Below are positions 2,075 through 64,000 of a stretch of DNA of 64,000 nucleotides, one piece after another; positions within the stretch are counted from its first letter, which is position 1; every line of letters begins with the position of its first letter. Source of the DNA: Vitis vinifera. Lineage: Eukaryota; Streptophyta; Magnoliopsida; Vitales; Vitaceae. The position numbers and the translations under genes are program-made. Location: assembly GCF_030704535.1 (NCBI RefSeq), contig NC_081811.1:3116501-3180500 (forward strand). Direction: 5' to 3'. The notes beneath the pieces were generated by a model. That model had not been told where the DNA came from and made no database searches. It saw only the letters and a program-made list of their open reading frames with translations.

Positions 2075-2111
<37 letters not shown>

Positions 2112-2805
2112 CAATTCCTCAAAATTCCTAACAGACGAGTTCTCATCTAAAAAAAATATTTTTTTTTTAAATATAAAATTTTAAGACACGAGTTCCTTTA
2201 GGAAAAAAAATATATTTTTTAATTTGGGATTTTTTAAAATAAAAAATATATTTTTTTAAAAATATATTAAGAGACGAGTTCCCTTTGGAATTGTGTTTTT
2301 TTTTTTTTTTTTTTTTTTAATTTGGGATTTTTTTTTTTTAATATATATATTTTTAAAAAAATATATTTTTTTTTACATGGAACTCGTCTCTTCAAGAGAC
2401 GAGTTCCCTTTGGAATTTATTTTTGTTTTTTTTAAATTTGGGATTTTTTAAAATAAAAAATATATTTTTTTAAAAATATTTTTTTTTTTACATGGAACTC
2501 GTCTCTTCAAGAGACGAGTTCCTTTTGCAATTTTTTTTTTTTTTTTTTAAATTTGGGATTTTTTAAAATAAAAAATATATTTTTTAAAAAATATATTTTT
2601 TTTTACATGTAACTCGTCTCTTCAAGAGACGAGTTCCCTTTGGAAAATTTTTTTTTTTTTTTAAATTTGGGATTTTTTAATAAAAAATATATTTTTTAAA
2701 AAATATATTTTTTTTCCTAAAGGAACTCGTCTCTTGAAATTTTATATTTAAAAAAAAATATTTTTTTTTAGATGAGAACTCGTCTGTTAGGAATTTTGAG
2801 GAATT

Positions 2806-2846
<41 letters not shown>

Positions 2847-4336
2847 TATATATTTAAAAAAATATTTTTTTTTTACATGGGAACTCGTCTCTTGAAGAGA
2901 CGAGTTCCCTTTGGAATTAAATTTTTTTTTTTTTTTTTTTTTAATTTGGGATTTTTTTTTTAATATATATATATTTTTAAAAAAATAATTTTTTTTTTAC
3001 ATGGAACTCGTCTCTTCAAGAGACGAGTTCCCTTTGGAATTTTTTTTTTTTTTTTTTTAATTTGGGATTTTTTAAAATAAAAAATATATTTTTAAAAAAA
3101 TATATTTTTTTTTACATGGAACTCGTCTCTTGAAGAGACGAGTTCCCTTTGGAATTGTGTTTTTTTTTTTTTTTTTTTTTAATTTGGGATTTTTTTTTTT
3201 TAATATAAAGAGACGAGTTCCCTTTGGAATTTATTTATTTTTTTTTTAAATTTGGGATTTTTTAAAATAAAAAATATATTTTTTTTTACATGGAACTCGT
3301 CTCTTCACTTTGGAATTGTGTGTGTTTTTTTTTTTTTTTTAAATTTGGGATTTTTTAAAATAAAAAATATATTTTTTTTTACATGGAACTCGTCTCTAAG
3401 AGACGAGTTCCCTTTGGAATTGTGTGTGTTTTTTTTTTTTTTTAATTTGGGATTTTTTTTTAATATATATATTTTTAAAAAAATATTTTTTTTTTTACAT
3501 GGAACTCGTCTCTTCAAGAGACGAGTTCCCTTTGGATTTTTTTTTTTTTTTAATTTAGGATTTTTTTTTAAAAAATATTCTTTTTTACATGGAACTCGTC
3601 TCTTGAAGAGACGAGTTCCCTTTGGAATTTTTTTTTTTTTTAATTTGGGATTTTTTAAAATAAAAAATATATTTTTTAAAAAATATTTTTTTTTTTACAT
3701 GGAACTCGTCTCTTCAAGAGACAAGTTCCCTTTGGAATTTTATTTTTTTTTTAAAAAAAAATTTGGGATTTTTTAAAATAAAATATATATTTTTTTTTAC
3801 ATGGAACTCGTCTCTTTGTTCCCTTTTTGGAAATTTTTTTTTTTTTTTTTTAAATTTGGGTTTTTTTAAATTAAAAAATATATTTTTAAAAAAATATATA
3901 TTTTTTTTACATGGAACTCGTCTCTTCAAGAGACGAGTTCCCTTGAATAATTGTTTAGAATTTTTTTAAAATTATATATATATTTTTTTTCATGGAACTC
4001 GTCTCTTCAAGAGACGAGTTTGCTTTTTTTTACACACCCTCTCTCCTCTCTCCTCTCTCCTCTCTCCTCTCTCTCACCCTCTCTCCTCTCTCCTCTCTCC
4101 TCTTTCCTCTCTTCTTTCATGGAACTCGTCTCTTCAAGAGACGAGTTTGCTTTTTTTTTACAGTCACCTTCTCTCCTCTTTCCTCTCTTCTCTCACCCTC
4201 TCTCCTCTCTCCTCTCTCCTCTTTCCTCTCTCCTCTCTCCTATGTGGCAAAAACTACCCTATATTTGTAATAACTTCTGCCAGTACAGTAATTTAAGCAT
4301 AACTTTTTTAAATTGCTGTACTATTGAGAAAAGTCC
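766..4336. mobile_element. Foldback (MULE-like) element with giant inverted arms
   Basis: The ends are inverted copies: GGACTTTTCTCAATAG at 766 and its complement ending at 4336. They are flanked by a perfect 10-bp direct repeat CAATTTTGAC at 756-765 and 4337-4346. Ends starting with GG and a 9-11 bp target duplication are typical of Mutator-like elements. Inside each end are about 100 bp of unique terminal repeat, then a purine tract of GAGAGAGG units (861-999; its complement lies at 4036-4243), then many AT-rich units of roughly 100 bp, each carrying a perfect palindrome. The two arms are inverted relative to each other over most of the 3.57 kb. No transposase frame exists; the apparent open frames are translated repeats. 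It must depend on an enzyme made elsewhere. The class call is inference from the target duplication and ends. Confidence 0.8.
1009..4150. repeat. Array of about twenty 29-bp palindromes
   Basis: The unit is a 14-bp stem GGAACTCGTCTCTT, one central base (G or C), and the inverted stem. Copies are seen near 1009, 1135, 1214, 1355, 1465, 1690, 1810, 1900, 2016, 2381, 2486, 2608, 2880, 3004, 3117, 3503, 3591, 3702, 3914, 4002 and 4121. The spacers are poly-A/T blocks with ATATAT cores and the words AATTTGGGATTTTTT or its complement. In the left part the centre is mostly CTTGAAG and in the right part mostly CTTCAAG, as expected for an inverted duplication. A partial unit is found around 2130 and, inverted, around 2780. 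Confidence 0.9.
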
Positions 4337-34153: not shown

Positions 34154-34783
34154 ATGGAGCTCTGCAGATCTTTGGTTATGAGAAATATTTCGGCTGAAGA
34201 TCTTCAGGACGTGAGGAGGATATTTCGGATGAAGGTCTACGCCCTGGTCTCCATCTCCGGCGATCCCTTTATTCCTGCTGGCAAATGGAACTCCACCACT
34301 GTGGACTATGAAGGTGGCACCGACCCCACCTGGAAAACCCAATTCAGTTTCACCCTCCATGACCCCTCCCTCCACCGCAACCTCCAGCGCCTCAACTTCC
34401 AATTCTACTGCGAGCGATCTCTCGGGGACAAGATCGTTGGAGAATTCAGCATCCCGGTGAAGTCACTCTTTGACAAGGTTGGGAACCGCGACGTTTCCAG
34501 CAGCGGTTGTTATCCGGTGACGAATTCTTCCGGAGGCGAACAAGGGGCTGTCAAGTTCACGTTCGAGTTTGGCCAGCCGCTTGCTCGCGTGGTAACGCCA
34601 CCGCGGTCTCAGCTACCACCAAGGCCTCAAGTGCACGTCCAACCAACGGTAGACGTGCAACTGAACCTGAATATTTCAGGGGATTGTCTGCAGCAGGGGT
34701 ACACTGCTGCATGTGATGATGACAATGAATTGGCATGTGACGATTGTTGTGATGAAGAGGACGACTATGATGATTTCTGTTAG
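34154..34783 (+). CDS. Small C2-domain protein, third of three; stop supplied by an LTR
   Basis: A single exon of 209 residues, close to the second C2 gene: MELCRSLVM, then RMKVYALVSISGDP, a DPTWKT turn, RLNFQFYCER, and AVKFTFEFG as last strand (C2-like domain about 1-155). A Pro-rich linker and a strongly acidic Cys-containing tail follow. The start is fixed by the TATA box and Kozak context. The last codons read GAT GAT TTC TGT TAG, where TGTTAG is the first six bases of a Copia LTR. On the far side of the element the same target repeat ATTTC is followed directly by TGA. The empty-site gene therefore ended DDF, and the insertion adds one Cys and replaces the 3' untranslated region. The coding domain is otherwise untouched. 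Confidence 0.88.
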   Translation: MELCRSLVMRNISAEDLQDVRRIFRMKVYALVSISGDPFIPAGKWNSTTVDYEGGTDPTWKTQFSFTLHDPSLHRNLQRLNFQFYCERSLGDKIVGEFSIPVKSLFDKVGNRDVSSSGCYPVTNSSGGEQGAVKFTFEFGQPLARVVTPPRSQLPPRPQVHVQPTVDVQLNLNISGDCLQQGYTAACDDDNELACDDCCDEEDDYDDFC

Positions 34784-35027
34784 AAAAAGAAATCTGAAGA
34801 AAGAATTGAGAGAAAAGATGAAAAGAATTCTCTTCATTCCTCTTGTCACAAAATACAAGGCTGCTCTGTTATATAACAGAGTAAAATGGCTCAACAAAAA
34901 CTGAACCAGAAAAACAGAAACAAAACTTAACAACAAACTGAACAAAATAACTCAAAAATAGCTCAGCTTACAATAATGACAAAACTACCCTTCTAGTAAA
35001 AAATAACTAATACAATCAATCCTAATA
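34778..35027 (-). repeat. 3' LTR of the Copia element
   Basis: 250 bp starting TGTTAGAAAAAG in plus orientation, matching 39384-39633. It overlaps the last two codons of the third C2 gene. Confidence 0.95.
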
Positions 35028-35034
35028 CTCCCCC

Positions 35035-38000
35035 TCAAGATGGACTAAAGATGTTCTTTAGACCCATCTTGCCAATAAGAAGCTTAAAAGAAGAAGGATG
35101 AAGGGCTTTTGTCAAAACATCTGCTAACTGGTGTTCTGTAGAAACAAACATAGGCTTGAGAACCCCACTTTGAACCTTGTCTCGAACAAGATGACAATCA
35201 ATCTCAATGTGTTTTGTGCGTTCATGAAACACGGGATTTTCAGCCATATGTAAAGCAGACTGATTGTCACAAAAAAGAAGAGCAGGAGCAGAATGATCTA
35301 TACCAAAGTCCTTGAGAAGAGCAAGAAGCCAAGTAATCTCACAAGAAGTATTGGCCATAGCACGATACTCAGCTTCAGCAGAAGAGCGAGAAACAATGTG
35401 TTGTTTCTTGGATTTCCATGACACCAAAGAATTCCCCAAGAAAACACAAAAACCAGTAACAGATCTTCTCGAATCGGGACAACGAGCCCAATCTGAATCA
35501 GTATAAGCCATCAAACGAAGCTCTGAATTACTAGGAAAGAACAAACCCATGCCAGGATTACCTTTAAGGTAACGAAGGATTCTTTGAGCAGCATGTAAAT
35601 GGGGCAATTTAGGACGAGAAATGAACTGACTAAGTCGACCTACAGCATAAGAAATGTCAGGTCGTGTTAATGTCAAATATAACAGCTTCCCAAGTAGCCT
35701 ACGATACAAGCTAACATCAGGAAGATCAACCCCCTCATCCATGGATAACTTGACATTAGCTTCCATAGGTGTACTAGCAGCTTTGCAACCTAAATACCCG
35801 AAATCAGAAAGCAAATCAAGAACATATTTTCGCTGAGAAACACAGATTCCAGTAGAGGATTTAGCAATTTCAAGACCAAGGAAATACTTGACATCACCCA
35901 AATCCTTCAGTTTGAAGAGTTTATTCAACTCAGATTTCAAATCAGCAATGGCCCCTTGATTATTACTAGCTATAATCACATCATCAACATAAACAAGAAG
36001 AGCAATGAACAAGCCATCAACATTTTTGATGAAAAGAGAATGATCGGAAGGAGATTGACTGAATCCCAAGCCCATAATGGCAGTAGAAAACTTAGAAAAC
36101 CACTGTCTTGAGGCTTGTTTGAGACCATATAAGGATTTATGAAGCAAACAAACAGCATTCGAAGGCAAAGACTCCCCCTTTCTATTATAACCAGGAGGTA
36201 ACTTCATATACACTTCCTCATTCAAGTCTCCATGAAGGAAAGCATTGTTCACATCCAATTGTGACAAATGCCAACCTTTAACAGCAGCAATAGCCAAAAG
36301 CAATTTAACAGTCACTAGTTTTGCCACTGGTGAAAAAGTATCAACATAATCAATGCCTTCACGTTGAGTATACCCTTTTGCCACTAAACGAGCTTTATAC
36401 CGTTCTATGGTACCATCAACCTTATGTTTAACTTTGTACACCCATTTACAGCCAACAGGGTGCTTACCAACAGGTAAACTAACAATGGACCAGGTCTTAT
36501 TTTCCTCAAGAGCCTCTAATTCACAATCCATGGCAGCCCTCCATTCTGGTATTTCAGCAGCCTTTGCAAAAGAGCTGGGTTCTGAAATAATGGAAACTGA
36601 GAGAGAAAAAAGTTTGTAAGAAGAAGAGAGCTTATCATAACTCAAAAAATGTTGTATGGGATGAGAAGTGGAGTGAGTTTCAACATGAGCAACAGAGTTG
36701 ATTAAAGAGCAGTGATAATCTTTCAAATATGAAGGTTGTTTGGAGACTCTTGTTGGTCGTGAAGAAGGAGCAACTTGAAGAGGTGGCTGTGAAATAACAC
36801 GAGGAAGAACTGAGGAAGATTGATCATTATCAGCAGCAATACAAGGAAGAACTCGATCATGAAACAAATCAGAAGAAATATCAGGAGAAGAACAGGGATT
36901 TGTCTTTGAAAAAGGAAAGATCTCTTCATGAAAAATAACATTTCTAGAGATAGATATGGAACGTGTCTCTATATCCAGTAATTTGTACCCTTTAAAACCA
37001 AAGGGATAACCAAGAAAAACGGCTGCTTTGGCTCGAGGTGAGAATTTTGTCCTGTTAGCTTTCAAAGTAGAAACATAACACAAGCAACCAAAGACCCGCA
37101 AATGACTATAATCAGGCAGCTTATCATGTAGGATTTCAAAAGGAGTCTTATTGTTTAGAAAAGGACTTGGTGTTCTATTGATTAAGTATACTGCAGTGAG
37201 TATACAGTCACTCCAGTAGCAGACAGGAAGGCTGGACTGAAAAAGAAGAGCACGGGCCACATTTAGAATATGCTGGTGTTTCCTTTCTACCACAGAATTC
37301 TGTTGAGGAGTTTCAACACAAGAACGATAGTGTATGACACCAAGAGAATGATAGAAATTGGAAAGAAATAATTCTGGAGCATTATCTGATCTTATGGCCT
37401 TAACTTCCTTACCAAACTGCTTCTTTACAAAAGCAAAGAAATCTGGAATATATTTTTGAACTTCAGATTTATTCTTCAACATATAAACCCAAGTTACTCG
37501 ACTATAATCATCAACTATAGTCAAGAAAAATTTGTAGCCTTCAACACTGCCAACAGAAAAAGGTCCCCATATATCTAGATGCAAAAGATCAAAAGTGGAA
37601 GAACATCTTTTATTAAGAGAAATGTAAGGCAGACAACGCTGCTTAGCTAAAGGACATACATTGCAGGGAGTAAGATCAAAGGTTGAATCAAAATCCAATA
37701 TAGATTGTAGACCTTTTAAACGACTAAAAGAAGGATGTCCAAGTCTAGAATGCCACAAAGAAAGAATATTAGAAGTAGGAATCCGAGAAGCTGCAACAAA
37801 AGCTTTATCAGCAACAAAACTGTCAAAATCCAGCTGATATAACTGACCTTTCCTGCTACCCTTCCCAATCATCTTGCCCCGAGATGGTTCCTGAATAATG
37901 CAAGCATCAGGAGTAAAAACCATTGAAAGAGATAAAGTGTCTGTAAATGCACTCACAGAAAGTAGATTATATCTGAAAGTAGGCACAAACAACACATTTA

Positions 38001-38370
38001 GAAGCTTGACATCCTTCGAAAGAATGACCGAACCAACTCTATCAATAGGGACAGTAATACCAGTAGGTAAAGTAACTCGGACATTTTGAACATCAATAGA
38101 AGAATCAAATAGAGAAATGTCATTGCAAACATGATGGGTGGCCCCACTATCAATAATCCAACCTTTATTTTGGATTTTAACTTTATTACCAGCAAAATTA
38201 GACACTGATGGTCCTGTTGAAGAATTCTCTGTGGAAGCTGAAGAAGTAGAGCTTAATTGGTTGGTTAAGAGTTGAATCAATTGTTGACACTGCATGGTAG
38301 TGAGGGAAGAAACAGTGGATTCAGAAGAACCTGCATTCAAAGACTCGAGGACTTCTGAATTGTTAGCCAT
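35035..38370 (-). mobile_element. Copia pol region
   Basis: Copia order is visible: aspartic protease (WIIDSGATHHVC), GAG-pre-integrase (LWHSRLGHPS), integrase core (LLHLDIWGPF), reverse transcriptase with YVDDVIIAS, and RNase H (AYTDSDWARCPDSRRS, SRSSAEAEYRAMA). This is the enzymatic polyprotein part. Confidence 0.95.
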
Positions 38371-38403
38371 TGAGCTTGAATTAGGGCCTTTATTTTTGAA
38401 TTT

Positions 38404-39312
38404 CTATCCCGGTGGATACCCAACAAGTTTATAGCATTTATCTTTGGTATGACCTTGGAAACCACAATGAGAACAAGTAATTCTATCCCTTCTAGTTTTA
38501 GAGCCACCTGAACTTCCTGCTGGTGCATTAGAATTAGAGCCAAATGTCATAGGATCAGAATTGTGAGAACCAGAATAAGAATAACCAACAGTCCTGTGAC
38601 GTTCTTCTTGAATAACCAAAGAAAACACTTTATTAATAGCAGGTAAGGGATCCATCATCAAAATTTGTCCTCTAATCTGAGCATAAGAGTCATTTAAACC
38701 CATAAGAAATTGTAAAACATACTCCCTATGTTGATAATCTGTCCAGACTCTCAATCCACCACAATGACATACTGGAACAGGTTGAAACTCCCTCAATTCA
38801 TCCCAAAGAATCTTCAATTTAGTGAAATATGAATTGACATCCAATGAACCTTGATTAAGAGCAGATAATTGCTTCTTAATTTGAAAAATTCGAGGTCCAT
38901 TACCCTGATTAAATCTATCATTCAAATCTTTCCAGATATCACAAGCAGAATCCAAATATAAAAGACTATCTGCAATTTCTCTTGAAACAGCATTTATGAT
39001 CCATGAAGAAATCATACTGTTACATCTATTCCAAGCACCGTAAATCAAATCATGAGACATAGGTCTAGAAATCGTACCATCCACAAAACCAACTTTGTTC
39101 TTCGCTGTGAGAGCCATCAGCATCGCTCTACGCCAGGTATGATAATTCGCTCCAGTCAAAAGATTTGAAACAAGATTGAGCCCTGGATGATCTCCATTAT
39201 GAAGAAAATAGGGACTACTCGAATCTTCAACAACAACAATCTCAGAATTCACCTGGCCACCGCGATTACCATTACCAGATCCACCTTTCGCCATGAACAC
39301 GATCGAGAACAA
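38404..39312 (-). mobile_element. Copia gag region
   Basis: About 300 residues of UBN2/Retrotran_gag-type capsid sequence (LLTGANYHTWRRAM, RFNQGNGPRIFQIKKQL) ending in a CX2CX4HX4C zinc knuckle (CSHCGFQGHTKDKC). It forms the virus-like particle in this family. Confidence 0.92.
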
Positions 39313-39383
39313 AGAACAGAGAAAGAGAAGAAAAAAAATAGAAATTAGGGATTTGAAACCCTAAATGGATGGCTCTGATACCA

Positions 39384-39633
39384 TGTTAGAAAAAGAAATC
39401 TGAAGAAAGAATTGAGAGAAAAGATGAAAAGAATTCTCTTCATTCCTCTTGTCACAAAATACAAGGCTGCTCTGTTATATAATAGAGTAAAATGGCTCAA
39501 CAAAAACTGAACCAGAAAAACAGAAACAAAACTTAACAACAAACTGAACAAAACAACTCAAAAATAGCTCAGCTTACAATAATGACAAAACTACCCTTCT
39601 AGTAAAAAATAACTAATACAATCAATCCTAATA
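39384..39633 (-). repeat. 5' LTR of the Copia element
   Basis: 250 bp, near-identical to the other LTR. On the minus strand it is followed directly by the Met-tRNA primer site. Confidence 0.95.
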
Positions 39634-46134: not shown

Positions 46135-46697
46135 TGGAGATCTAGGATATTATCTGCATGCCCAATTTCCTAGCTATATATGACATCCCTCTCTCTCTGG
46201 GTCTTTGTGCCCTTTGTCCCCTTTTCCCCTTCTAGGTGTGGCCTATGGGTCCATTATGGTGTAAATATACGAGTATAGATAGGTCAAAGTTTAAGACTAA
46301 TTTACCATTAACAAGGAAAAATGAAATTTAATGAAAAAAAAAAAAAAGAAGAGAGATTAGTACTCATTTTTCATACTTGTCTTCATATTTGCCATTGTGT
46401 GGACGGGTTTATTTGGACAACCTTTTTTTATAATTTAGATTACCAACCTTCCTTATTTAATATCAACCAAAAAAATATTTTATACAATATTCTTTATAAA
46501 AAACGAGACTTTTCTATAATCTTGAGGCAAATTCCATTATACCATAAATGGAATTTGCCTATTTATCATGCCTATATCTATGAATGAGAAAAATCATTTC
46601 ATTATACCATAAAATCAAATGCAATTATCAAAACACCTAATGTTTCTCCACTTCTTATATCCACCGTAAACTATGAGCCTCCTACTCTACTTGGTAT
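46135..46697. other. 3' flank of ATG18
   Basis: Pyrimidine-rich 3' untranslated sequence to about 46300, then AT-rich DNA running into the tandem array. The short open frame at 46321 is not supported. Confidence 0.5.
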
Positions 46698-46999
46698 ATC
46701 TTTATCCAATTTAAATAGTTTTTAAATATTAATCTTTATTCCATAATTTTTTCCTCCCCTAACCTAAAATATTTATAATGATATTCTTAACAATTTTTTT
46801 ATTATATATAATAAAATCTAATATTACAATAATATATTAAAAGTCCTCACTCCATCACAATACTTAATTTTTTTCTAAGCAATTAATTCTCTATTCTTTC
46901 GATTTTTTTGCTTTTAACTACCATTGGGCAATTACATTTTTAAATATAAATTTCAAAGTACACGTTTATTAGAATCCTGTTAAGAAATACAAAACATGT
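46698..46999 (+). repeat. Left unit of the 300-bp tandem array
   Basis: Starts ATCTTTATCCAATTTAAATA and ends GAAATACAAAACATGT, like the units on the far side of the Gypsy element. The element's 5-bp target copy CATGT is at 46995-46999. Confidence 0.85.
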
Positions 47000-48189
47000 T
47001 GTGGACCCCGCGTTTCGATCTATCTCAATGCGTTTCCCACTCAATGGCGAGCTCGATTTTTATTTTATTAGAAAAAATGATTTTTATCGATTAAGAAAAT
47101 GACTTGGAGTCGCCACTTATTTTTGTTTTATTATTAAAGGGTAAACAAAATAAGAAAGAAAAACCCTAAGTGTGACTCCTTATTTTGGAAAAGGCGGTCT
47201 GTGAAAAACCGGATCGGGTTCGGGGGTCAGGTTACTTCTCGGGAAGGTATGGTAAAGACCGTAGCACCCCTCTAAGTCCCTAAAGTCGGGTCTCTACTAA
47301 TAAAATGAAGCTGACATGACAACCAATGAGAAAGTCAATGAATACCTAGGACGAATCATGCACATACGAGAATTAAAACATGCAAATAAAATGATTAGGA
47401 TGCGAGTGGATGTGTACCTGGACCGTGAACGATCAATGCGCTATCATAAAACAGGGTTAGTGAGCAATGAACAAAATATAATTAAGCGCATAACATGGAA
47501 CAAAATAAATCAAACACGCACGATAAGTAAATCAATCAAACAATCAATCAATCGTCAATTCACATATGTGGGGCCCCCACCAAAGCCCGTTTATTTTTGC
47601 ATGAATTAATTCCATAATTTCCATTATTCGGAGTTACAGAATTGAATCTATGCTTATTTTTAAAACATTTTAAAAGATCATGAAAGATTTAAAAAAATTG
47701 CTTGCCGAATAGAAAATGGAAGCAAATTTTATTAAAAAGAGATTTCAAGTGATTCTAAAAAAAAACCTAAAGGTGAAAATTAAAAATAAATAAATAAATA
47801 AATTATTTGATAAAAATGGAGTTTGGAAAATTAACAAAGAAACTAGAAATCGGGAAATTATGTGGAAAATGGGAGTTTTAGGACTTAAAAATAAATCTAA
47901 AGATGAAAATTCGAAAAGCAAAAATTGTTTGAAGGATTTGGAAATTTGACATTATAAAAAAAAAACAATTGGAGGGATTATTAATAAAATGATGTTCAGG
48001 AAAATTAATTTGGAAATCATAGGAACAGGAAGTGGGTGATAACACGTGGCTTCCGATTTACTGCCATTGCCACTATACCCACCATAGTCACCAAGCCCAT
48101 AGTCAATGCCTCCAAGTGCTCGGTAGGAAATAGGCCCAAAACACTAAGACGTGCCCCAGAGTTAGAGAAGATGCTGGAGAGATCTTTGA

Positions 48190-48504
48190 TCAAGCCACTT
48201 CACCAGATTTATGGCGATAGATCTTTCCGAAGACATGAAGAACGGTGACAAAGCCGATAAAGCAAAGGTTCATCACGAGAACCACCGTTGGAGTAATCTT
48301 CAAGCCCGGATCGTCATCGGTGTAGAACAAGAGCATGTTGCTCTCGCTGCTGCCACTGCCGCACCCTCCGGAGCTCTGAAACGACAGTGCGTGTGAGGAG
48401 ATTGACAACGACGCCGTCGAAGACAACCGGTCTACATAACCCTCCAACAAGCTTCGTCCTGAAGCTACTTCTGCCGCGGTGCTTTCCACATGTCGTCCAT
48501 ACAT
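48190..48504 (-). pseudogene. Sec61-beta-like segment captured in the 3' LTR
   Basis: An open frame of 104 residues in the element's sense. From about residue 44 it reads as Sec61-beta, the small tail-anchored subunit of the ER translocon: [20 protein letters not shown], then [20 protein letters not shown] and [18 protein letters not shown]. The FYTDD-PGLK-P-VLVM signature and single membrane segment (about 73-91) are diagnostic. The first 43 residues are unrelated. It is part of a retroelement LTR, not an independent gene. Confidence 0.88.
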
Positions 48505-48534
48505 CCAGTGACCCGAATCAGCGCCACCTCGTCC

Positions 48535-48762
48535 TCAACTCCAACGCAGCTGAATCTCACGCTGCTGTCCAGTTTGACCTGCGTCGGAAAGAACGACGTT
48601 GGGGGCCACGCAGGCATCGACGGTGATCTTCGGGAGCCACTGCCCCAGGGGAATTATCCTTCTCCGTCCTTTTTTTGAGCCTTCAACACTTTCTACAGCA
48701 AAAGTCTCCTCAACTTTTGATGGCCCCCACATGTACCAGTTGAGGCTATTTATGAATTTCAT
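48535..48762 (-). pseudogene. Gamma-carbonic-anhydrase-like segment captured in the 3' LTR
   Basis: 75 residues in the element's sense. About residues 32-58 read GRRRIIPLGQWLPKITVDAC and VAPNVVL, the strongly conserved start of plant gamma-CA-like proteins (gammaCAL1/2, matrix arm of mitochondrial complex I; Arabidopsis has GQR.IIPLGQWLPKVAVDAY). The preceding ETFAVESVEG could be from the presequence region. The rest is unrelated or diverged. It lies just upstream of the Sec61-beta segment in element orientation. Confidence 0.8.
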
Positions 48763-50559
48763 GGTTCAGATTTGCATCCATCTTATCTGATTATTCAATC
48801 TGTTCTAGCTTGACAACGTCCAGATTAAGCGTCCACTTATTGTCTTCTGATGAGTCAAGCTATAATAACCAGATTTCTTTGTCGATGTCTATTGATTCGG
48901 ATACCTTCAGCACAACAGATCAGAAAAACTTGTTGCCTCAACTATAACCTCAGTGTAGCTGGAGGCTCATAATCCTGCAGCTTATTGAAAAAAAGATCCA
49001 GTGACTAATCGAAAAACCTGCCCATCATAGGTCCGACCAGTTCTTCCTCTAAGCTACTCAACCTGAGACTTGGAGACATAGGCAAGCTCTGGAGCTTCCT
49101 TTTTCCGATTACTGGAAGCTCACAGAGTGACCTTCCTCATTTCTTCATTCTACAACAGCGAACTCTCTTTCTCAAAAGCACCCCAATCCAAACGGCCAAA
49201 TTCAAAACAAGATGTCCAATACTCCAAAAGAACACCAAAAAAACAGAGAAGAAAGTGAAGAAAACAGAGTGCGTGCAAGAGATGATAATACCATTAAACC
49301 AAACTTTACTTCATGAAGATCGGAGAGCTTAAAACAATCTGGTGGGTTAAGTGAATGGTTTTAACACATAAACAAACAACATCGACACCATGTGACTCAC
49401 ACAGGAATAAACAAAAATCAAGCAAGCAGGGATGAAAACATGCTTAAGATCTTAAACAGTCAAAATGAACATTTCAAATATTAGGAAAGGAGTCAAATAT
49501 GGTTGTGAAAAGGAAAAACCTGAAGTCGAAGACAACCAAAATTTGGATGACTCCTTTTCTCTCTGTGACTGAAATCCCACCTTCTCGTTCTACTCCCTGA
49601 GCTGAGAACTCTCCTCTCAACTCCAAACTCACTCCAGACCAGCCTCTCTTCACTCTCCCCCTCCTCTCTGACTCTCTCTCTCTAGCTAAACTCCTCTAAG
49701 CCTTCCCTCATCCTCAAAATATCTCTAACGGACTCTGAAAAGCACTCCCTACTCCAGCTGCCAGAGACGCTCCTCCATTCACGGCTTCCAGATTCCCATG
49801 CAACGTGTCCCCTTTTGATTGGCTTCCCAAACCACTATTATGATTCTCTCATGGCTTCTCAGGTGTTGACACGTGGCTGACCAAGGCTCTTCCACATGGT
49901 AAAATTGAGCTGCAAGGTAGGAATGACCTAAAAGGGGGTCTACAAATATGCCCCTCTTCGGTAGAGTTCACGAGTGTAAAGAACATGAACACTGGAGTGA
50001 AAAGTAAGTGTGAATAGTGAGTGGAATGAAGTGAACTCTACCGAAGAACCAAGGAGACCCCCATAGAGACACTAGTGAGATATAAACTCACTCAGACTAA
50101 CAGATAAACAACGAGGCTCTAATCCTAAAAGGAAATGATGTCTCAAAAATGCCTCTGCAGCCACACTAAGGATCCAAGCTCCCTCTAAGACGTCTCCAAA
50201 AGTGACTCGAAGATCAATGTCAAAGATGAGTAACAGTCGAACCACCCTAGAGTACAAGAAAGAATGTGCCCGAAGGAAACTACCCTATGTGAACTACATG
50301 AGAAGACTAGGTGTAGGGTGCCCAACAACATGACAAAAATACGCATCACGGAATCAAAGAACTATGTCATGTGCAATGGAATGGGAAGTCTAGAAGAGCA
50401 ATGACGATCAAGCAATGAGCTCCAGGTAACTGAGTGAGGAAAATGACTCTGAAAAACCAAAATGGAGGAATAATGGCGACTCAGAATGCAAAGAAGACTC
50501 AACTATGCAGGTGTGACTCGAAGGTGAACAAGACTCAACTCAATCCGACAAAACAATGA

Positions 50560-52010
50560 CCGATCGATATAGGTGCGGTCCCGACTCAAACTGAACTGAT
50601 AGGAAGATGGTCGATCGATATAGGTGCGGCCCAGACTCAAACTGACGTGATGAATGACCGATCGATATAGGTGCGGTCCCGACTCGAACTGAACTGATAG
50701 GAAGATGGCCGATCGATATAGGTGCGGCCCCGACTCAAATTGACATGATGAATGACCGATCGATATAGGTGCGGTCCCGACTCGAACTGAACTGATAGGA
50801 AGATGGCCGATCGATATAGGTGCGGCCCCGACTCAAACTGACATGATGAATGACCGATCGATATAGGTGCGGTCCCGACTCGAACTGAACTGATAGGAAG
50901 ATGGCCGATCGATATAAGTGCGGCCCCGGACTCTAACTGACAAGACAATGACCGATCGATATAGGTGCGGTCCCGACTCTAACTGAACTGATAGGAAGAT
51001 GGCCGATCGATATAGGTGCGGCCCCGACTCAAACTGACATGATGAATGACCGATCGATATAGGTGCGGTCCCAGAAACTAAACTGATAGAAAGATGGCCG
51101 ATCGATATAGGTGCGGCCCCGACTCAAACTGACATGATGAATGGCCGATCGATATAGGTGCGGTCCCAGAAACTAAACTGATAGGAAGATGGCCGATCGA
51201 TATAGGTGCGGCCCCGACTCAAACTGACATGATGAATGACCGATCGATATAGGTGCGGTCCCAGAAACTAAACTGATAGGATGAATGACCGATCGATATA
51301 GGTGCGGTCCCAGAAACTAAACTGATAGGATGAATGACCGATCGATATAGGTGCGGTCCCAGAAACTAAACTGATAGGATGAATGACCGATCGATATAGG
51401 TGCGGTCCCAGAAACTAAACTGATAGGAAGATGGCCGATCGATATAGGTGCGGCCCCGACTCGAACTGAACTAATAGGAAGATGGCCGATCGATATAGGT
51501 GCGGCCCCGACTCAAACTGACATGATGAATGACCGATCGATATAGGTGCGGTCCCAGAAACTAAACTGATAGGATGAATGACCGATTGATATAGGTGCGG
51601 TCCCAGAAACTAAACTGATAGGAAGATGGCCGATCGATATAGGTGCGGCCCCGACTCAAACTGACATGATGAATGACCGATCGATATAGGTGCGGTCCTA
51701 GAAACTGAACTGATACGAAGATGGCCGATCGATATAGGTGCGGCCCCGGATTCTAACTGAACTGATAGGAAGATGGCCGATCGATATAGGTGCGGCCCCG
51801 ACTCAAACTGACACGATAATGACCGATCGATATAGGTGCGGCCCCGACTCGAACTCAAACTGATAAGATGAATGACCGATCGATATAGGTGCGGTCCCGA
51901 CTCAAACTGACACGACGAATGACCGATCGATATAGGTGCGGTCCCGACTCGAACTGAACTGATAGGAAGATGGCCGATCGATATAGGTGCGGCCCCGGAC
52001 TCTAACTGAC
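50560..52010. repeat. About thirty tandem copies of a roughly 50-bp unit inside the Gypsy element
   Basis: Core CCGATCGATATAGGTGCGG recurs every 45-55 bp, alternating GGTCCC and GGCCCC variants so that a dimer of about 100 bp is also visible. A second variant (CCCAGAAACTAAACTGATAG) is amplified between about 51060 and 51710. The repeats lie between gag and the 3' LTR. Tat/Ogre elements are known to carry such arrays in this region, some of which seed satellites. The open frames across it are translated repeats. Confidence 0.95.
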
Positions 52011-52084
52011 ACTGATGATGATGAATGACTTGGTCAAGTGACCCAAAACCAAAGGATGACTCAGATAATAATGCAAACAAACTC

Positions 52085-53680
52085 GATCGGAGGGGATATG
52101 CCCCAGTATGACAACTCATGCGGATCGACAACTAGGTCGACAGATAATGAAGCCTGTGAAAGGTCCGATGATCTCGGAGAAGGAGGGTATGCCCCAGTAT
52201 GCAACTCAAGGGAATCAACAACTAGATCAAAAGTGAGTGAAACCGGTGGAAGGTTCAATGCTCTCGGAGAAGGGGTATGCCCCAGTATGCAATGACGAAC
52301 AGACAGAGATGCAAAATGCCTCAAAACTACTGTACTCTGAAATATGCTCATCCATCATGTAATGAAAATGTCCAACCTCAAATAGGTAATGCCAAACAGG
52401 ACTATGTATAGTGATACCATGCTGACTAAACAGAAATGACTGACGAATAAAAACAATGATGACCAATGCCCGAAATGTGAAAAACAAGCAAATCAACACT
52501 CAACATGCCAACTGTCAAAATGAAAGCATCAACACTAATAAGTCAGCAATCTGTCAGGCCCTGCCATCATGGAAGATGTTGAACCTAAAGTCCAAAAGAT
52601 ATATGAAAGCACAACCAAGGTGATCGAGGACTGATCTACATCTCCTCATAATCGAGAAAGGGGTGAGGTCATGTGCCATGGTAAGATGTGAAGGATAAAA
52701 GAAGGTGATGGTCAGGCTCCGGTATGAGAGAAGGTATGAAAGTATCCATGGTGAAACGTCTGAGTATGAAATGAAAGGTAGGGAGATATCCGAGATCATC
52801 CAAGTATGCCGAGAAGACTAAACCCAAGGTGTCGATAACTCCATAACCCATCGTAAGTAGCAATCACAAACAGGAAGTCAAGCCTCAATGTCAAAACCTC
52901 CAACAAGGTGGCTATGCCCCAGTATGCAATGAGGACAACATGAAATAATCCAATGATCTCCCTATCACTCGTCAGGTGCTCCAATGTCAAGAACCAATAT
53001 GATCTCCCTCCAAAAGATGGACATGCCCCAATGTAAAGGATCCAAATAGGGTGGCTATGCTCCAATGAAAAATGCTCTCCGTCCCGGCTATGCCCCAGTG
53101 TAAAGTAGTGTATCCGAGTCAGCAAATCAATCAACCTCTACTCCCGGTGCCAAAACGGAAACATCTCAACATAATCCATATGAATCAGAATCCCCGGGCT
53201 CCATGAATGTGAATGCGGTGGCTATGCCCCAGTATAAACCAACTGAAGTGACTATGCTCCAATGACCAATCAAAGTCCATCACCAATGAGAGGGCTACGC
53301 CTCAAATAAAATCGTCATCTCAAAAACCAACCATCGATGAGTAGAGTGTGTCCCAATGCAGAGTATCGAGTAGAGCGACCGTATCTCCAATAAAAACGCC
53401 CTCTGAAATGGCTATGCCCCAGTATAGGGTCATCCCACAACTCCTGATCCATCGTAATCCAAGTGAAGAAGCGAACTGACTATGCCTCAGTGCAAGGCAC
53501 CATCCAGAAAGAAAATGTCATCAATGAGCGGGGTATGCCCCAGTGTAGATAACGTCGCCTCTGAAAGTCCATCACCGATAAGAGGGGTATGCCCCAGTGT
53601 AAATCATCATCTCAACTCCACATCCATAATGCTCTGAGAGATAATCACCGACCAAGCTCGAGTATTGCCCATGTGTGAGC
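52085..53680. repeat. Dispersed TATGCCCCAGT motif, about fifteen copies
   Basis: GGCTATGCCCCAGTAT-like words occur near 52088, 52188, 52268, 52911, 53023, 53055, 53089, 53219, 53250, 53297, 53408, 53480, 53532, 53587 and 53667, at irregular spacing and not as a clean tandem array. Confidence 0.8.
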
Positions 53681-56086: not shown

Positions 56087-57565
56087 CTACTGAAGACCAG
56101 GAGGAGGAGGAACTGCATGTGTAGAATGTGTAGGCAGGGGATTGGTGGTCACACTTGGCCTAGCCAAGTCAACCACCCCTGAATCGATCAAATCCTGTAT
56201 CGCATGATGGAGTGCTGAACAACGCTCAGTATCGTGCCCCGGAATCTGATGATACAAGCAATGCTCATGTAAACGGAAATGAGGAGGAATAGGATGGGGC
56301 AAAGGCCTCGGTGCCAAAGGAACAATCACTCCAGCGTCTCTGAGCTTCTCAAAAGCTCTAGTCAAAGTCATACCCAACGGAGTAAACTGTCTCGCGGGCC
56401 TCTGTGCATATGGCCTAGGTAGCGGGTGAGTAGTGGCTCTCGGATGTGGTGGTCGCGGCTGCACGCTAGTCTGAGCAATGTAAGGCTCCTGAGCATAATC
56501 CAACTGATACTGATACTGTGGAAGAGAGAAAGGAGCTCTGACTGTAGGAGGCCTATAAGCTGAGTGAAGCGCGGGCCTCCGGTGCTGATAGCTAATAACA
56601 CCAACCTCTCCAGATCTACCCAATGGTCCAATCAGCTTCTTCCCCTTACTGTCAGGGGAAGAAGTAGTATCTGTCCATAATCCTCGAGCAATGGCCTCCT
56701 CAACACTGAAAGCTGCCTGAACCAAACTCCTGAGATCCTGAAATGGGATGCCCACAAGACGTCTCGCGAACCTCGGCTGTAGGTTCCGAAGAACCATATC
56801 AATCTGATCCTGCTCCTTAGGCCGGTCTACCATACCAGCCACCTTTGCCCTCCAACGAGTGACAAATGAAGAAATAGACTCCTCTGGCCTCTGTCTAGTG
56901 GCCTCCAACTCTCGTCTGGATACATCAATATCGGCACTGAAAGCGAACTGAGTCAGGAACTCACGAGCCACGTCTTCCCAGGTGCGGAGTCTCGAAGGCT
57001 CAACTGAAGCAAACCATCTCTGAGCTGCTCCACTAAGTGACATCGGGAAGAGGGCCACCAACTGCGCATCATCTATACCATGTGCTCTCATGACCGTGCT
57101 GTATAGCCTCAAGTGGATCTTGGGACAACCAATCCCACTGTAACGCTCAATGTCTGGCATGCGAAACTTGGCGGGCAAGCTAGCCGCCGGTATGCCATCC
57201 CTGTCATCCCAAGTCAAACCTCCGTCCTGCAATCTGATCTGTCTCATCATGGACTCAAGCCTCTCAACCTTGGCCTCCTGCTCGGCCAATCGAGTATCCT
57301 CAATAGTAGGAACCATGGGAGGCGGCACTGTGACAGTAGGTGGTGGAATGGTCTCATAATGATCTGCCAGATGGAACGGAGTACCAAGTGAAACCCTAGG
57401 TGGACGAGTCTGTGCTGTCTGAGATGCATGAGGAACTGTCTCATCAATGACCATGCCAACCGGCTGGGGATCCTGGCGAGAACTCTCTATCTGATCCAAG
57501 CGCTTACTGACTCCGGCCATGAACTCCTGAATGGAAGCGAGTGTGGAAGCTAGCTCGTCTGACAT
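56087..57565 (-). mobile_element. Gypsy gag region
   Basis: About 490 residues from MSDELASTLASIQEF. A Retrotrans_gag domain is visible (LSGAAQRWFASVEPSRLRTW, REFLTQFAFSADIDVSRREL, RRELEATRQRPEESISSFV), followed by a Pro-rich part and the Tat/Ogre-type C-terminal motif CLYHQIPGHDTERCSAL with AIQDLIDSG. The frame is open further upstream to 57736, but that part has no gag character. No protease follows. Confidence 0.9.
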
Positions 57566-59531
57566 CTCAACTGAACTGTCTGAACTCAAATATGAATCTG
57601 ATCTGATCAATCGTCCTCCAACTCTCCTCCAAGAATGTGACTCCAGACTCAACCGACTCCTAAACTGACTTCCTACAATGCAAACAAGATGGATGAAGGA
57701 CATGAGATGAAACTCTAAAAGACGACAGTACAACATACAAGCACATGGTCCAGAGGTAGCAATCAGAAATCTGGATATATGACGAGAACTCTGGAGTCAT
57801 AAAGGTGTCCACTGTGAGATGGCTACAAATGTGACTAGAGAATTCCTATCAATAATCCAAGATGAAAGAGGTGTGAAAAACACACTATCACGAGATCGGT
57901 ACTCCATCAATAAACATATACCTTTAACTCAACTTCCAACCCAAGCTCCATAAGAGAAAAAATGATAGGGTGATCAAGGCGAATCTCTCGAAAAAAGTGT
58001 GGATGTGAAAATGCGCCTTTCACCTTTCCGTAATGAAAATATGAGCATCGGGTTGAAAATTGAATCAAGTATCCAACGAAGAAATGAAGTACTCAGCCCG
58101 TGATAGGTGTACAATGCAAAAACAAGATGATCAATGAACATATCCCAAAGTATCAAGTGAGTGACAACAAAGTGAAGGGGTGTGTCGAGCCAAGAAATGA
58201 GAACGAAATCCCTAGGGAGAAAACATGCTAAACTCCTTGAGTAAAAAAACATAATCTAAGGTGACAAGGCGAAAGGTGATCCAACCGATACTCAAACAAA
58301 TAACGATCTCCGAGTACTCTCAACTGGAGACTAAAAAGAGGGAATACTGGATCCGAACTGTAACTAAAGAGGCTCCGAAGGCCCTCAGATGCACCCACGT
58401 GTGAGGAAGGAAGTCCTACTCGAAGGATCTACGGCTCAACCTACGAGGTCAGGTGGCTCTAAATGGATATGGGTGGACTTTAAAAAAATCCCGAGCAGAA
58501 GCGATCATACCCTCCAGCGGTACGCAACCCTCTGCACACCTCAGAAAAGACGGGGCGCTTCCATGCAAGGTGGACATCGCATCCACACATGCACTACCTC
58601 GACATCCCAAGGGGTTTCCTATGGTGAATTCTCTCAAACTCTCAACGCTCAATAGTCAACTAGAGTGCACAGTAATCGGTGTGGGTGCATCCGAAACCCT
58701 AAGAAGATAAAGCAGAAGATGAGACACACTGGTCGCATAAATATCCATGAAACCTAGCTCGGGGCTATACAGGTCTTCAATGATCGGACTCTAATCGACA
58801 ACAATGCGCCGCTCGCCTCCAGAATGCTCCCAAACATCAGTATAGCCCGTCGCTGGACCCTACTCCTAACCTCTATCTCGGTCAGAGTACAAGCACACAC
58901 AAGGCCTCACACTTGCAAAAGTGAGAACCGTAATGAAGGAAGTGACCGAGACTAGAGGGTGGGAGACAAGGAGATAGATATGCGACCCACATAAACAAAC
59001 GGCACACAATCATGCAAAAGGAGGGCAGTCATGCGACACGCAATCAAACAAATCTCAGATATATCATCAATGTACACACACAAAATAAGCGAGAATACGA
59101 CGATCAGATGAATAATGATACAAAGACAACACGCTTAAAGATGATCAAAATAATATACCAACAAGTGGATCAGCATGTCGAGTCGAATGATATACAGTGG
59201 TGAGTGTATGCATGTGAAGTGATTAGAACAATCATGGCAAAATCAGAGTAAATGTGCTAAGCAATGCAATATGATCAATCAATATAAATCAGCAATGTCG
59301 ATGTAGCAAACATATATAATCAGTGAAGCACGAAAAATCACGGCCTCAGAAGCCTCAATCAGGATAAAATCAATCATCATAATCAACATGTCAAAAGTCT
59401 CGAACAGATATAAAATCCGAGTATACATCAAATATCCTCAATGTGCAATCAAGAAATGGGTACCCATTGATCGTCCAATCGAATGCCACGTTTGCTTCAT
59501 TCTAAGTTCAAGCTTGACCCTCTAAAAAAAA

Positions 59532-59549
59532 TCCCCAGTGGAGTCGCCA
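59532..59549 (-). other. Primer-binding site of the Gypsy element
   Basis: TGGCGACTCCACTGGGGA on the minus strand, 3 bp from the end of the 5' LTR. It resembles the complement of the Arg-tRNA 3' end used by Tat/Ogre elements. Confidence 0.75.
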
Positions 59550-60742
59550 TTTTGTGGACCCCGCGTTTCGATCTATCTCAATGCGTTTCCCACTCAATGG
59601 CGAGCTCGATTTTTATTTTATTAGAAAAAATGATTTTTATCGATTAAGAAAATGACTTGGAGTCGCCACTTATTTTTGTTTTATTATTAAAGGGTAAACA
59701 AAATAAGAAAGAAAAACCCTAAGTGTGACTCCTTATTTTGGAAAAGGCGGTCTGTGAAAAACCGGATCGGGTTCGGGGGTCAGGTTACTTCTCGGGAAGG
59801 TATGGTAAAGACCGTAGCACCCCTCTAAGTCCCTAAAGTCGGGTCTCTACTAATAAAATGAAGCTGACATGGCAACCAATGAGAAAGTCAATGAATACCT
59901 AGGACGAATCATGCACATACGAGAATTAAAACATGCAAATAAAATGACTAGGATGCGAGTGGATGTGTACCTGGACCGTGAACGATCAATGCGCTATCAT
60001 AAAACAGGGTTAGTGAGCAATGAACAAAATATAATTAAGCGCATAACATGGAACAAAATAAATCAAACACGCACGATAAGTAAATCAATCAAACAATCAA
60101 TCAATCGTCAATTCACATATGTGGGGCCCCCACCAAAGCCCGTTTATTTTTGCATGAATTAATTCCATAATTTCCATTATTCGGAGTTACAGAATTGAAT
60201 CTATGCTTATTTTTAAAACATTTTAAAAGATCATGAAAGATTTAAAAAAATTGCTTGCCGAATAGAAAGTGGAAGCAAATTTTATTAAAAAGAGATTTCA
60301 AGTGATTCTAAAAAAAAACCTAAAGGTGAAAATTAAAAATAAATAAATAAATAAATTATTTGATAAAAATGGAGTTTGGAAAATTAACAAAGAAACTAGA
60401 AATCGGGAAATTATGTGGAAAATGGGAGTTTTAGGACTTAAAAATAAATCTAAAGATGAAAATTCGAAAAGCAAAAATTGTTTGAAGGATTTGGAAATTT
60501 GACATTATAAAAAAAAAACAATTGGAGGGATTATTAATAAAATGATGTTCAGGAAAATTAATTTGGAAATCATAGGAACAGGAAGTGGGTGATAACACGT
60601 GGCTTCCGATTTACTGCCATTGCCACTATACCCACCATAGTCACCAAGCCCATAGTCAATGCCTCCAAGTGCTCGGTAGGAAATAGGCCCAAAACACTAA
60701 GACGTGCCCCAGAGTTAGAGAAGATGCTGGAGAGATCTTTGA

Positions 60743-61057
60743 TCAAGCCACTTCACCAGATTTATGGCGATAGATCTTTCCGAAGACATGAAGAACGGTG
60801 ACAAAGCCGATAAAGCAAAGGTTCAACACGAGAACCACCGTTGGAGTAATCTTCAAGCCCGGATCGTCATCGGTGTAGAACAAGAGCATGTTGCTCTCGC
60901 TGCTGCCACTGCCGCACCCTCCGGAGCTCTAAAACGACAGTGCGTGTGAGGAGATTGACAACGACACCGTCGAAGACAACCGGTCTACATAACCCTCCAA
61001 CAAGCTTCGTCCTGAAGCTACTTCCGCCGCGGTGCTTTCCACATGTCGTCCATACAT
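60743..61057 (-). pseudogene. Sec61-beta-like segment in the 5' LTR
   Basis: The same segment in the other LTR. It looks broken. Its presence at the same LTR position shows the capture preceded this insertion. Confidence 0.85.
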
Positions 61058-61087
61058 CCAGTGACCCGAATCAGCGCCACCTCGTCC

Positions 61088-61315
61088 TCAACTCCAACGC
61101 AGCTGAATCTCACGCTGCTGTCCAGTTTGACCTGCGTCGGAAAGAACGACGTTGGGGGCCACGCAGGCATCGACGGTGATCTTCGGGAGCCACTGCCCCA
61201 GGGGAATTATCCTTCTCCGTCCTTTTTTTGAGCCTTCAACACTTTCTACAGCAAAAGTCTCCTCAACTTTTGATGGCCCCCACATGTACCAGTTGAGGCT
61301 ATTTATGAATTTCAT
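61088..61315 (-). pseudogene. Gamma-carbonic-anhydrase-like segment in the 5' LTR
   Basis: The translated segment is identical to the copy in the other LTR. Confidence 0.8.
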
Positions 61316-62502
61316 GGTTCAGATTTGCATCCATCTTATCTGATTATTCAATCTGTTCTAGCTTGACAACGTCCAGATTAAGCGTCCACTTATTGTCTTC
61401 TGATGAGTCAAGCTATAATAACCAGATTTCTTTGTCGATGTCTATTGATTCGGATACCTTCAGCACAACAGATCAGAAAAACTTGTTGCCTCAACTATAA
61501 CCTCAGTGTAGCTGGAGGCTCATAATCCTGCAGCTTATTGAAAAAAAGATCCAGTGACTAATCGAAAAACCTGCCCATCATAGGTCCGACCAGTTCTTCC
61601 TCTAAGCTACTCAACCTGAGACTTGGAGACATAGGCAAGCTCTGGAGCTTCCTTTTTCCGATTACTGGAAGCTCACAGAGTGACCTTCCTCATTTCTTCA
61701 TTCTACAACAGCGAACTCTCTTTCTCAAAAGCACCCCAATCCAAACGGCCAAATTCAAAACAAGATGTCCAATACTCCAAAAGAACACCAAAAAAACAGA
61801 GAAGAAAGTGAAGAAAACAGAGTGCGTGCAAGAGATGATAATACCATTAAACCAAACTTTACTTCATGAAGATCGGAGAGCTTAAAACAATCTGGTGGGT
61901 TAAGTGAATGGTTTTAACACATAAACAAACAACATCGACACCATGTGACTCACACAGGAATAAACAAAAATCAAGCAAGCAGGGATGAAAACATGCTTAA
62001 GATCTTAAACAGTCAAAATGAACATTTCAAATATTAGGAAAGGAGTCAAATATGGTTGTGAAAAGGAAAAACCTGAAGTCGAAGACAACCAAAATTTGGA
62101 TGACTCCTTTTCTCTCTGTGACTGAAATCCCACCTTCTCGTTCTACTCCCTGAGCTGAGAACTCTCCTCTCAACTCCAAACTCACTCCAGACCAGCCTCT
62201 CTTCACTCTCCCCCTCCTCTCTGACTCTCTCTCTCTAGCTAAACTCCTCTAAGCCTTCCCTCCTCCTCAAAATATCTCTAACGGACTCTGAAAAGCACTC
62301 CCTACTCCAGCTGCCAGAGACGCTCCTCCATTCACGGCTTCCAGATTCCCATGCAACGTGTCCCCTTTTGATTGGCTTCCCAAACCACTATTATGATTCT
62401 CTCATGGCTTCTCAGGTGTTGACACGTGGCTGACCAAGGCTCTTCCACATGGTAAAATTGAGCTGCAAGGTAGGAATGACCTAAAAGGGGGTCTACACAT
62501 GT

Positions 62503-64000
62503 CTTCGTATATCTTTATCCAATTTAAATAGTTTTTATATATTTATCTTTATCCAATAACTTTTTCCTCCCCTAACCCAAAATATTTATAATGATATTCT
62601 TAATAATTTTTTTATTATATATAAAAAAGTCTAATATTACAATAATATATTAAGAGTCCTCGCTCAATTACAATACTTAATTTTTTTCTAAGCAATTAAT
62701 TCTCTATTCCTCTGATTTTTTTTTGCTTTTAACTACCATTGGGCAATTACATTTTTAAATACAATTTTCAAAGTACACGTTTATCATAATTATATCTTTA
62801 TCCAATTTAAATAGTTTTTATATATTTATCTTTATCCGATAACTTTTTCCTCCCCTAACCTAAAATATTTATAATGATATTCTTAACATTTTTTTTATTA
62901 TATATAAAAAAATATAATATTACAATAATATATTAAAAGTCCTCAACTCAATTACAATACTTGTTTTTTTTCTAAGCAATTAATTCTCTATTCTTCCGAT
63001 TTTTTTTTGCTTTTAACTACCATTGGGCAATTACATTTTTAAATACAAATTTCAAAGTACACATTTATCATAATTATATCTTTATCCAATTTAAATAGTT
63101 TTTATATATTTATCTTTATCCAATAACTTTTTCCTCCCCTAACCTAAAATATTTATAATGATATTCTTAACAAATTTTTTTATTATATATAAAAAAATCT
63201 AATATTACAATAATATATTAAGAGTCCTCGCTTCCTTCCAATTTTTTTTTTGCTTTTAACTACCATTGGACAATTACATTTTTAAATACGAATTTCAAAG
63301 TACACGTTTATCATAATCCTGTTAAGAAATATAAAGATATATCTTTATCCAATTTAAATAGTTTTATATATTTATCTCTATCTGGTAATTTTTTCCTCTC
63401 CTAATTTAAAATATTTATAATGATATTCTTAACAATTTCTTTATTGTATATAAGAAAAAATTAATATTATAATAATATATCAACTGTACTCGCTCCATTA
63501 CAATACTTAATTGTTTTCTAAGCAATTAATTCTCTATTCTTCCAATTTTTTTTGCTTTTAACTACCATTGGAGAATTACGTTTTTAAATACAAATTTCAA
63601 AGTATACGGTTTATCATAATCTTGTTAAAAAATACAAAACATGTTCTTTATCCAATTTAAATAGTTTTTATATATTTATCTCTATTTGGTAATTTTTTCC
63701 CCTCCTAATCTAAAATATTTATAATGATATTCTTAACAATTTCTTTATTGTATATAAGAAAATTTTAATATTATAATAATATATCAACCGTCGCTCCATT
63801 ACAATACTTAATTTTTTTCTAAGCAATTAATTCTCCATTCTTCCGATTTTTTTTTTGCTTTTAACTAGCATTGAGCAATTACATTTTTAAATACAAATTT
63901 CAAAGTATATGTTTATCATAATCTTGTTAAGAAATACAAAACATGTCTTGGTATATCTTTATCCACTTTATATAGTTTTTATATATTTATTTCTATTTGA
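62503..64000 (+). repeat. Tandem array of 263-311 bp AT-rich units
   Basis: Units begin with ATCTTTATCC(A) at 62511, 62794, 63078, 63341, about 63644 and 63955 and run off the window. Each has the same order of blocks: TTTTTCCTCCCCTAA, ATATTTATAATGATATTCTTAA, CTAAGCAATTAATTCTC, and TTTTAACTACCATTGG. No unit is coding. With the unit at 46698 the array predates the Gypsy insertion. Confidence 0.92.

Follow-up and report, generated by a model that had tools for sequence, protein, structure and literature searches.

Pieces of spliced host mRNAs inside the long terminal repeats of a grapevine retrotransposon family

Capture of mRNA by LTR retrotransposons is already known for internal regions: in maize Bs1, the host pieces lack introns and lie in the internal coding region. 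In the ordinary retrotransposon replication cycle, U3 is duplicated into both LTRs. The available text of a 2026 review of plant gene capture deals with Bs1, TRIM transduction, Rider, Veju and BARE-2, and the cases given there include no host-mRNA mosaic inside an LTR (PMC13317346). For BARE-2 and Veju of barley and wheat, gain of sequence by reverse transcriptase (RT) template switching is described, with a changed LTR in BARE-2 (PMC13317346, PMC1950507, in part); elsewhere, 672 genes in rice and 1,343 in sorghum are carried by LTR elements (PMC3726574, in part), and Cassandra has a cellular 5S rDNA-related sequence inside its LTR (PMC10853983, in part). A serial mRNA mosaic inside LTRs was not found in the literature searched, which lay largely outside subscription journals.

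The locus described here is in Vitis vinifera, on a 64,000-nucleotide stretch of DNA analysed as a whole and called the window (C7:3116501-3180500; Cn, contig number); the genome searched comprised 495.6 Mb on 21 contigs. A sequence-only reading of the window had placed Sec61-beta and gamma-carbonic-anhydrase-like (gamma-CA-like) sequence next to each other in both LTRs of a Gypsy element, in the element's own sense, and had proposed that two host transcripts were copied in during reverse transcription.

The window element and the host pieces in its LTRs

The element has two TG..CA LTRs of 2,945 bp, the 3' LTR at 47000..49944 and the 5' LTR at 59553..62497 (both minus strand), which differ at 8 of 2,945 positions and are enclosed by the 5-bp target-site duplication (TSD) CATGT (46995..46999 and 62498-62502, no strand assigned). 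A primer-binding-site-like sequence (PBS), AAATGGCGACTCCACTGGGGATT (59530..59552, minus), adjoins the 5' LTR and a polypurine tract (PPT), GAAGAGGGGCATATT (49945..49959, minus), adjoins the 3' LTR. The element reads in the minus sense, with the PBS-like sequence placed after the right LTR, the PPT before the left LTR and gag on the minus strand (stop-to-stop ORF, 56087..57796; PF03732, 2.8e-11). These are features of Ty3/gypsy elements, and the Ty3/gypsy label is based on gag and on the likeness of the PBS, which resembles that of the Tat/Ogre lineage. In the three internal minus frames, Pfam found no pol domain and no protease, RT, RNase H or integrase of the element's own, so the window element is taken to be gag-only and non-autonomous. 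TR-GAG elements are defined by LTRs, PBS, PPT and a gag ORF, with pol absent; the window element likewise has a gag ORF between its LTRs and no pol domain found. No relative was found in viral_contigs or plasmids, and Rfam gave no match to the window at the gathering threshold.

Just inside the 3' LTR, the internal region has ~98-bp tandem repeats (50555..52021, minus), whose units read HLYRS or ISIGH in minus frames. Tandem repeats of ~263-303 bp occupy the right flank (62503-63999) and one further unit (92-94%) lies in the left flank (46690-46969), so the element lies within a repeat array. Elsewhere in the window, a second repeat-flanked element (34778-39633) has 250-bp direct repeats (99%) around a 1,111-aa minus ORF (35035-38370), and a long AT-rich run of tandem and inverted repeats with 115-bp spacing extends over 907-4238.

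The sources of a 573-bp segment present in both LTRs (48190-48762 in the 3' LTR) are four host genes, with 88.5-91% DNA identity between the pieces and their parents elsewhere in the genome. In the order of the element sense, all on the minus strand, these are exon 1 of a gamma-CA-like gene (48575..48670; parent C17:1341431, 88.5% over 96 bp), an F-box/Kelch gene (48489..48589; parent C6:17441326, 91%), a RING-H2 gene (48368..48483; parent C15:13773816, 90%) and Sec61-beta, represented by its core, membrane anchor, stop codon and the start of its 3'UTR (48121..48374; parent C13:5446787, 89.8% over 255 aligned bp). The same pieces lie in the 5' LTR (60674..61667, minus; offset 12,553). The two identifications made in the sequence-only reading, for both LTRs and in element sense, were borne out by Pfam PF03911 (7.1e-13) and PDB Sec61-beta (4e-12) for the first and by PDB gamma-CAL2 (2.9e-10 over IIPLGQWLPK..VAPNVVL) for the second, and the intact parents that it had suggested seeking in the genome were found on C13 and C17; the two segments do not adjoin as it had stated, since the F-box/Kelch and RING-H2 pieces lie between them. 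Pfam confirms F-box with Kelch, and RING-H2, in the respective parents. The RING-H2 piece is in frame with the Sec61-beta piece, and a fusion of the two makes up most of a 114-residue stop-to-stop frame (48534-48190), the 5' LTR counterpart of which is interrupted by a stop. For 92 nt of the segment, 48671-48762, no source was identified.

Processed pseudogenes made by LINEs have a poly(A) tail and a target-site duplication of their own; the captured pieces abut further host pieces. Two more pieces lie upstream in the LTR. One (48785..48901, minus) is 89% like C12:11103633; this match was rejected as the host gene because the C12 locus is itself a mosaic, and the true source gene was not found by genome search. 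The other (48906..49114, minus) derives from a DEAH-type helicase gene (parent C7:3454314-3454595, minus) and is spliced: its two blocks, 93% and 92% identical, are contiguous in the LTR and separated in the parent by a 74-nt GT..AG intron (TCTCAG/GTATTG..CTGTAG/GCTGAG). The LTR joins the exons exactly at 49063/49062, and the source was therefore a spliced mRNA. The helicase exons match PDB helicases to 1.1e-7 (Helicase_C, 0.0016, is below cut-off). The sequence-only reading had also proposed that the host genes could be affected by small RNAs or chimeric transcripts from the LTR; exact 21-mers are common to the LTR and the parents at 4 LTR positions for gamma-CAL, 18 for Kelch, 16 for RING, 1 for Sec61-beta and 30 for the helicase mRNA. 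The window LTR holds at least five host transcripts; of the earlier proposal of two, the transcript origin stands, given exact intron removal in the same LTR, and the number does not.

That neither segment might resemble its proposed gene, or that both might be missing from all other copies, had been named as what would speak against the sequence-only reading; the similarity is significant, and the whole 573-bp segment occurs at one other genome place, C14:28466350 (96%; all 20 candidates scored). The Sec61-beta piece occurs at nine places outside the window other than Sec61 genes, C14:28466350 included and two short matches (C10:14944542 and C9:12283761) left aside; eight of the nine were read, C7:25638249 being outside the reading, and all eight are LTRs of the same family.

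Related LTRs, intron removal and orientation

Loci, given L-numbers, were cut out around genome matches to the Sec61-beta or Kelch piece, and ten of them (L009, L014-L020, L022 and L023) are LTRs of 3.1 to 5.6 kb, a sample that is biased towards carriers of host pieces by this choice. All match the 3' part of the window LTR to 47745 or further; the last ~745 bp (the conserved 3' part, 47000..47745, minus) are common to them and the window LTR, and mostly so is a short 5' end. LTR status was read in the flanks from ends with TSD, PPT or PBS, which gave five solo LTRs with equal flanks (L009, L016, L017, L018 and L022), two full elements (L014+L015 and L019+L020) and a single 3' LTR (L023). The middles of these related LTRs differ, being different mosaics. 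In a six-frame Pfam scan of the window LTR and seven other LTR middles, from which the last 745 bp were left out, the sense matches above cut-off belonged to four host families, Sec61_beta (six of the seven other middles), NMT_C, HSP70 and PMEI; THF_DHG_CYH, Kinesin, RNB and PIEZO followed below cut-off, with two chance-level matches at 0.08. The antisense matches were only NAD-GH (8e-6, on the HSP70 piece) and DUF4682 (0.065). NAD-GH was rejected as a real antisense piece because it coincides with the HSP70 piece, a known artefact.

A copy of the element on C19 (L074) has an internal region 96% alike and an LTR of 2,236 bp (L074 1043-3278, minus) whose middle is unrelated to that of the window LTR; the two LTRs have in common 38 bp across the PPT/LTR start and the last ~612-633 bp (to 47632). 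No host piece was recognised in it by Pfam, while a DNA search scored 40 of 1,825 candidates, with the matches left uninspected; not every LTR of the family, therefore, need carry one. An antisense ArfGap match there (0.0029, below cut-off) was rejected as lysine-rich low complexity. Genome matches indicate a large family. A search with internal positions 52100-53600 (1,501 bp) gave 472 first-look candidates; of the 40 places scored, 30, its own among them, have at least 1,400 of these bases with 85-100% identity. For the LTR 3' end there were 3,126 first-look candidates, 40 of them scored. The complete four-gene mosaic, by contrast, has the single further occurrence on C14. Four other loci (L050, L051, L062 and L071, on C16, C12 and C2) themselves look like mosaics of gene pieces and could be old LTRs, either of this family or of a relative; one has what is presumably calpain-like (DEK1) sequence.

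Across five LTRs, ten canonical GT..AG introns (74-2,379 nt) from seven transcripts are exactly removed. In addition to the helicase in the window LTR, L018 has three exons of an IPP isomerase gene (C4; introns of 85 and 389 nt gone; PDB 1.9e-18); L016 has a lipase-like gene (C17) without a 1,449 nt intron and a transcript of C18:549014, with no clear reading frame, without a 78 nt intron; L022 has an ANTH-like gene (C1) without a 108 nt intron and a SERK/BAK1-like gene (C7) without an 82 nt intron (PDB 1.5e-33); and L014 has four exons of a gene at C13:7558973-7561802 from which introns of 91, 75 and 2,379 nt are gone. A scripted test found a GT start and an AG end at ten of ten joins. In alignments of 46 to 60 columns, LTR and spliced join were 83 to 98% identical, with sense scores of 64-115 versus antisense scores of 16-22; small gaps lie beside the 2,379-nt join (2 nt) and the 108-nt join (3 nt). 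Spliced mRNA was the source of the pieces. Two candidate introns were rejected: a gapped match to C2:16185 (L071) is not canonical and its locus is itself a mosaic, and for the 139 nt of parental coding sequence missing from the N-myristoyltransferase (NMT) piece at L016 3149-3152 the parent reads through, so that this loss is interpreted as a jump inside a single mRNA.

Every one of the 15 transcripts read is in the element sense: helicase, gamma-CAL, F-box/Kelch, RING-H2, Sec61-beta, NMT, a DUF3741 gene, lipase-like, FolD-like, C18:549014, IPP isomerase, HSP70, ANTH-like, SERK-like and the C13:7561 gene. The strand was given by the reading frame for 13 of them and by splice signals for C18:549014 and the C13:7561 gene; the count covers these named transcripts, and the parents of the Kinesin, PMEI, RNB and PIEZO matches fall outside it. 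Lipase-like, ANTH-like, DEK1-like and LONGIFOLIA/TRM-like are putative names. For the LONGIFOLIA/TRM-like gene Pfam gives DUF3741; the lipase-like exon had no PDB match, and the ANTH-like exon only a chance one (0.88). FolD-like is likewise putative, drawn from sub-cut-off Pfam matches of the LTR piece and a reading of L068.

Proposed template switching in U3 and its alternatives

Several LTRs of this family are mosaics of spliced host mRNA pieces, very probably made by RT template switching in U3. The pieces lie upstream of the conserved 3' part, between it and the 5' end of the LTR; this is the PPT side and presumably the U3 side. In the internal minus frames Pfam found only gag, and the host pieces found lie in LTRs, the internal region being covered by Pfam on minus frames and by one 1.5-kb DNA search. 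Template switching during the copying of U3 fits pieces that are sense, free of introns and chained, and that lie towards the PPT. We infer switching in U3 during minus-strand synthesis, packaging of host mRNA and exchange of modules by further switching: RT that is copying the 3'-terminal U3 of the element RNA would jump onto a co-packaged host mRNA, sometimes copy several host mRNAs serially, and then return to the element RNA. On completion of the plus strand, U3 would be copied into both LTRs, so that a single capture would be seen in both and passed to daughter copies; later switching among RNAs of related elements would swap modules.

Read by eye, the parents are alike at three of the four junctions for which both were read (RING/Sec61-beta, 12/13 nt; lipase/FolD, 9/11; gamma-CAL/Kelch, 5 exact), which supports template switching; the Kelch/RING junction has a 5-nt gap and no shared bases. 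The Sec61-beta piece has a constant 3' junction across LTRs but different 5' neighbours: RING in the window LTR and L009, another upstream piece in L016, L017 and L019. This pattern suggests that related RNAs later exchanged sequence. The earlier proposal of copying during reverse transcription is upheld as to a spliced-transcript source, with a mosaic that looks stepwise. Two independent captures of Sec61-beta are not preferred: the window LTR, L017 and L019 have the 3' junction in common, together with the bases that follow it. In addition, the C13 gene is closer to the LTR copies than its C6 paralog is, so that one capture with later exchange on the 5' side is preferred. The window and L009 copies have hardly any derived residues in common with those of L016-L023 (a single one, an R to Q change found in both L009 and L019). 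Compared with the parent, the LTR copies of Sec61-beta have pN/pS of 0.22-0.66 (<1, with few changes), against 0.05 for the host paralogs, and by these ratios coding constraint on the piece looks relaxed.

Among the alternatives, it is unlikely that the pieces began as processed pseudogenes, or as intronless genomic copies of another kind, and were transferred into the LTR as DNA when an inserted element underwent repair or recombination. Some do occur also in the old-transposon-like loci L050, L051, L062 and L071, and several parents are single-exon across the stretch used; but in seven parents introns interrupt sequence that is continuous in the LTR, all 15 transcripts read are sense, one LTR holds several different transcripts, and the presence of the same piece in the two LTRs of a full element requires a replication step regardless. 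Pack-MULEs and Helitrons copy genomic DNA, introns included. Insertion into an ancestral LTR of such a DNA transposon with collected gene fragments has in its favour the gene-piece mosaics that these elements carry, yet it is very improbable, as ten introns are exactly removed in the family LTRs, the mosaics vary between LTRs and no transcript read departs from the sense orientation. Chance similarity or assembly error is negligible in view of PDB E-values down to 4e-12, the 88.5-91% identity of four pieces to their parents, the exact splice joins and the full mosaic at a third locus (96%).

If template switching built these mosaics, reverse transcription captures many spliced host mRNAs into the inferred promoter part of the element, where they are doubled in each insertion, a testable source of U3 diversity. 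In the available part of one source, V. vinifera is described as having an unusual number of retro-pseudogenes, with L1 elements suggested as a possible cause (PMC7935947); captures by the LTRs of this family could explain the excess. More tentatively, and as something possible rather than probable, U3 may act as a standing sampling zone, the internal sequence being kept while the promoter-bearing region is repeatedly renewed from spliced host mRNAs. If so, the LTRs would record the germline transcriptome in the manner of fossils, would let the element change promoters and evade silencing that is based on sequence, and would be a major source of the unusually numerous intronless gene fragments of grapevine. 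For annotators, such LTRs are a warning, as they hold false exons of real genes.

Comparison with known systems

The absence of introns from the transduced host exons and the sense orientation of the pieces are as in host-mRNA transduction of the Bs1 type. Maize Bs1 resembles the grapevine family in having several host gene pieces, parts of three host genes, in one LTR element, according to the available text of the review (PMC13317346). It differs in that the grapevine pieces found are inside LTRs and, as far as the partial internal test extends, not in the internal region, vary between related LTRs and come from at least 15 transcripts in the LTRs read. BARE-2 and Veju are alike in gaining sequence by RT template switching, but their donor, in the portions of the sources at hand, is another retrotransposon (Wis-2) or DNA of unknown origin, whereas the grapevine donors are host mRNAs (PMC13317346, PMC1950507). 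The captured genes of rice and sorghum are also carried by LTR elements; in the accessible text they are annotated inside elements, with none placed within the LTR itself (PMC3726574). Cassandra is similar in the presence of cellular sequence within the LTR, which there, in the text available, is a single conserved 5S-like promoter sequence (PMC10853983), while the grapevine LTRs hold changing mosaics of protein-coding mRNAs.
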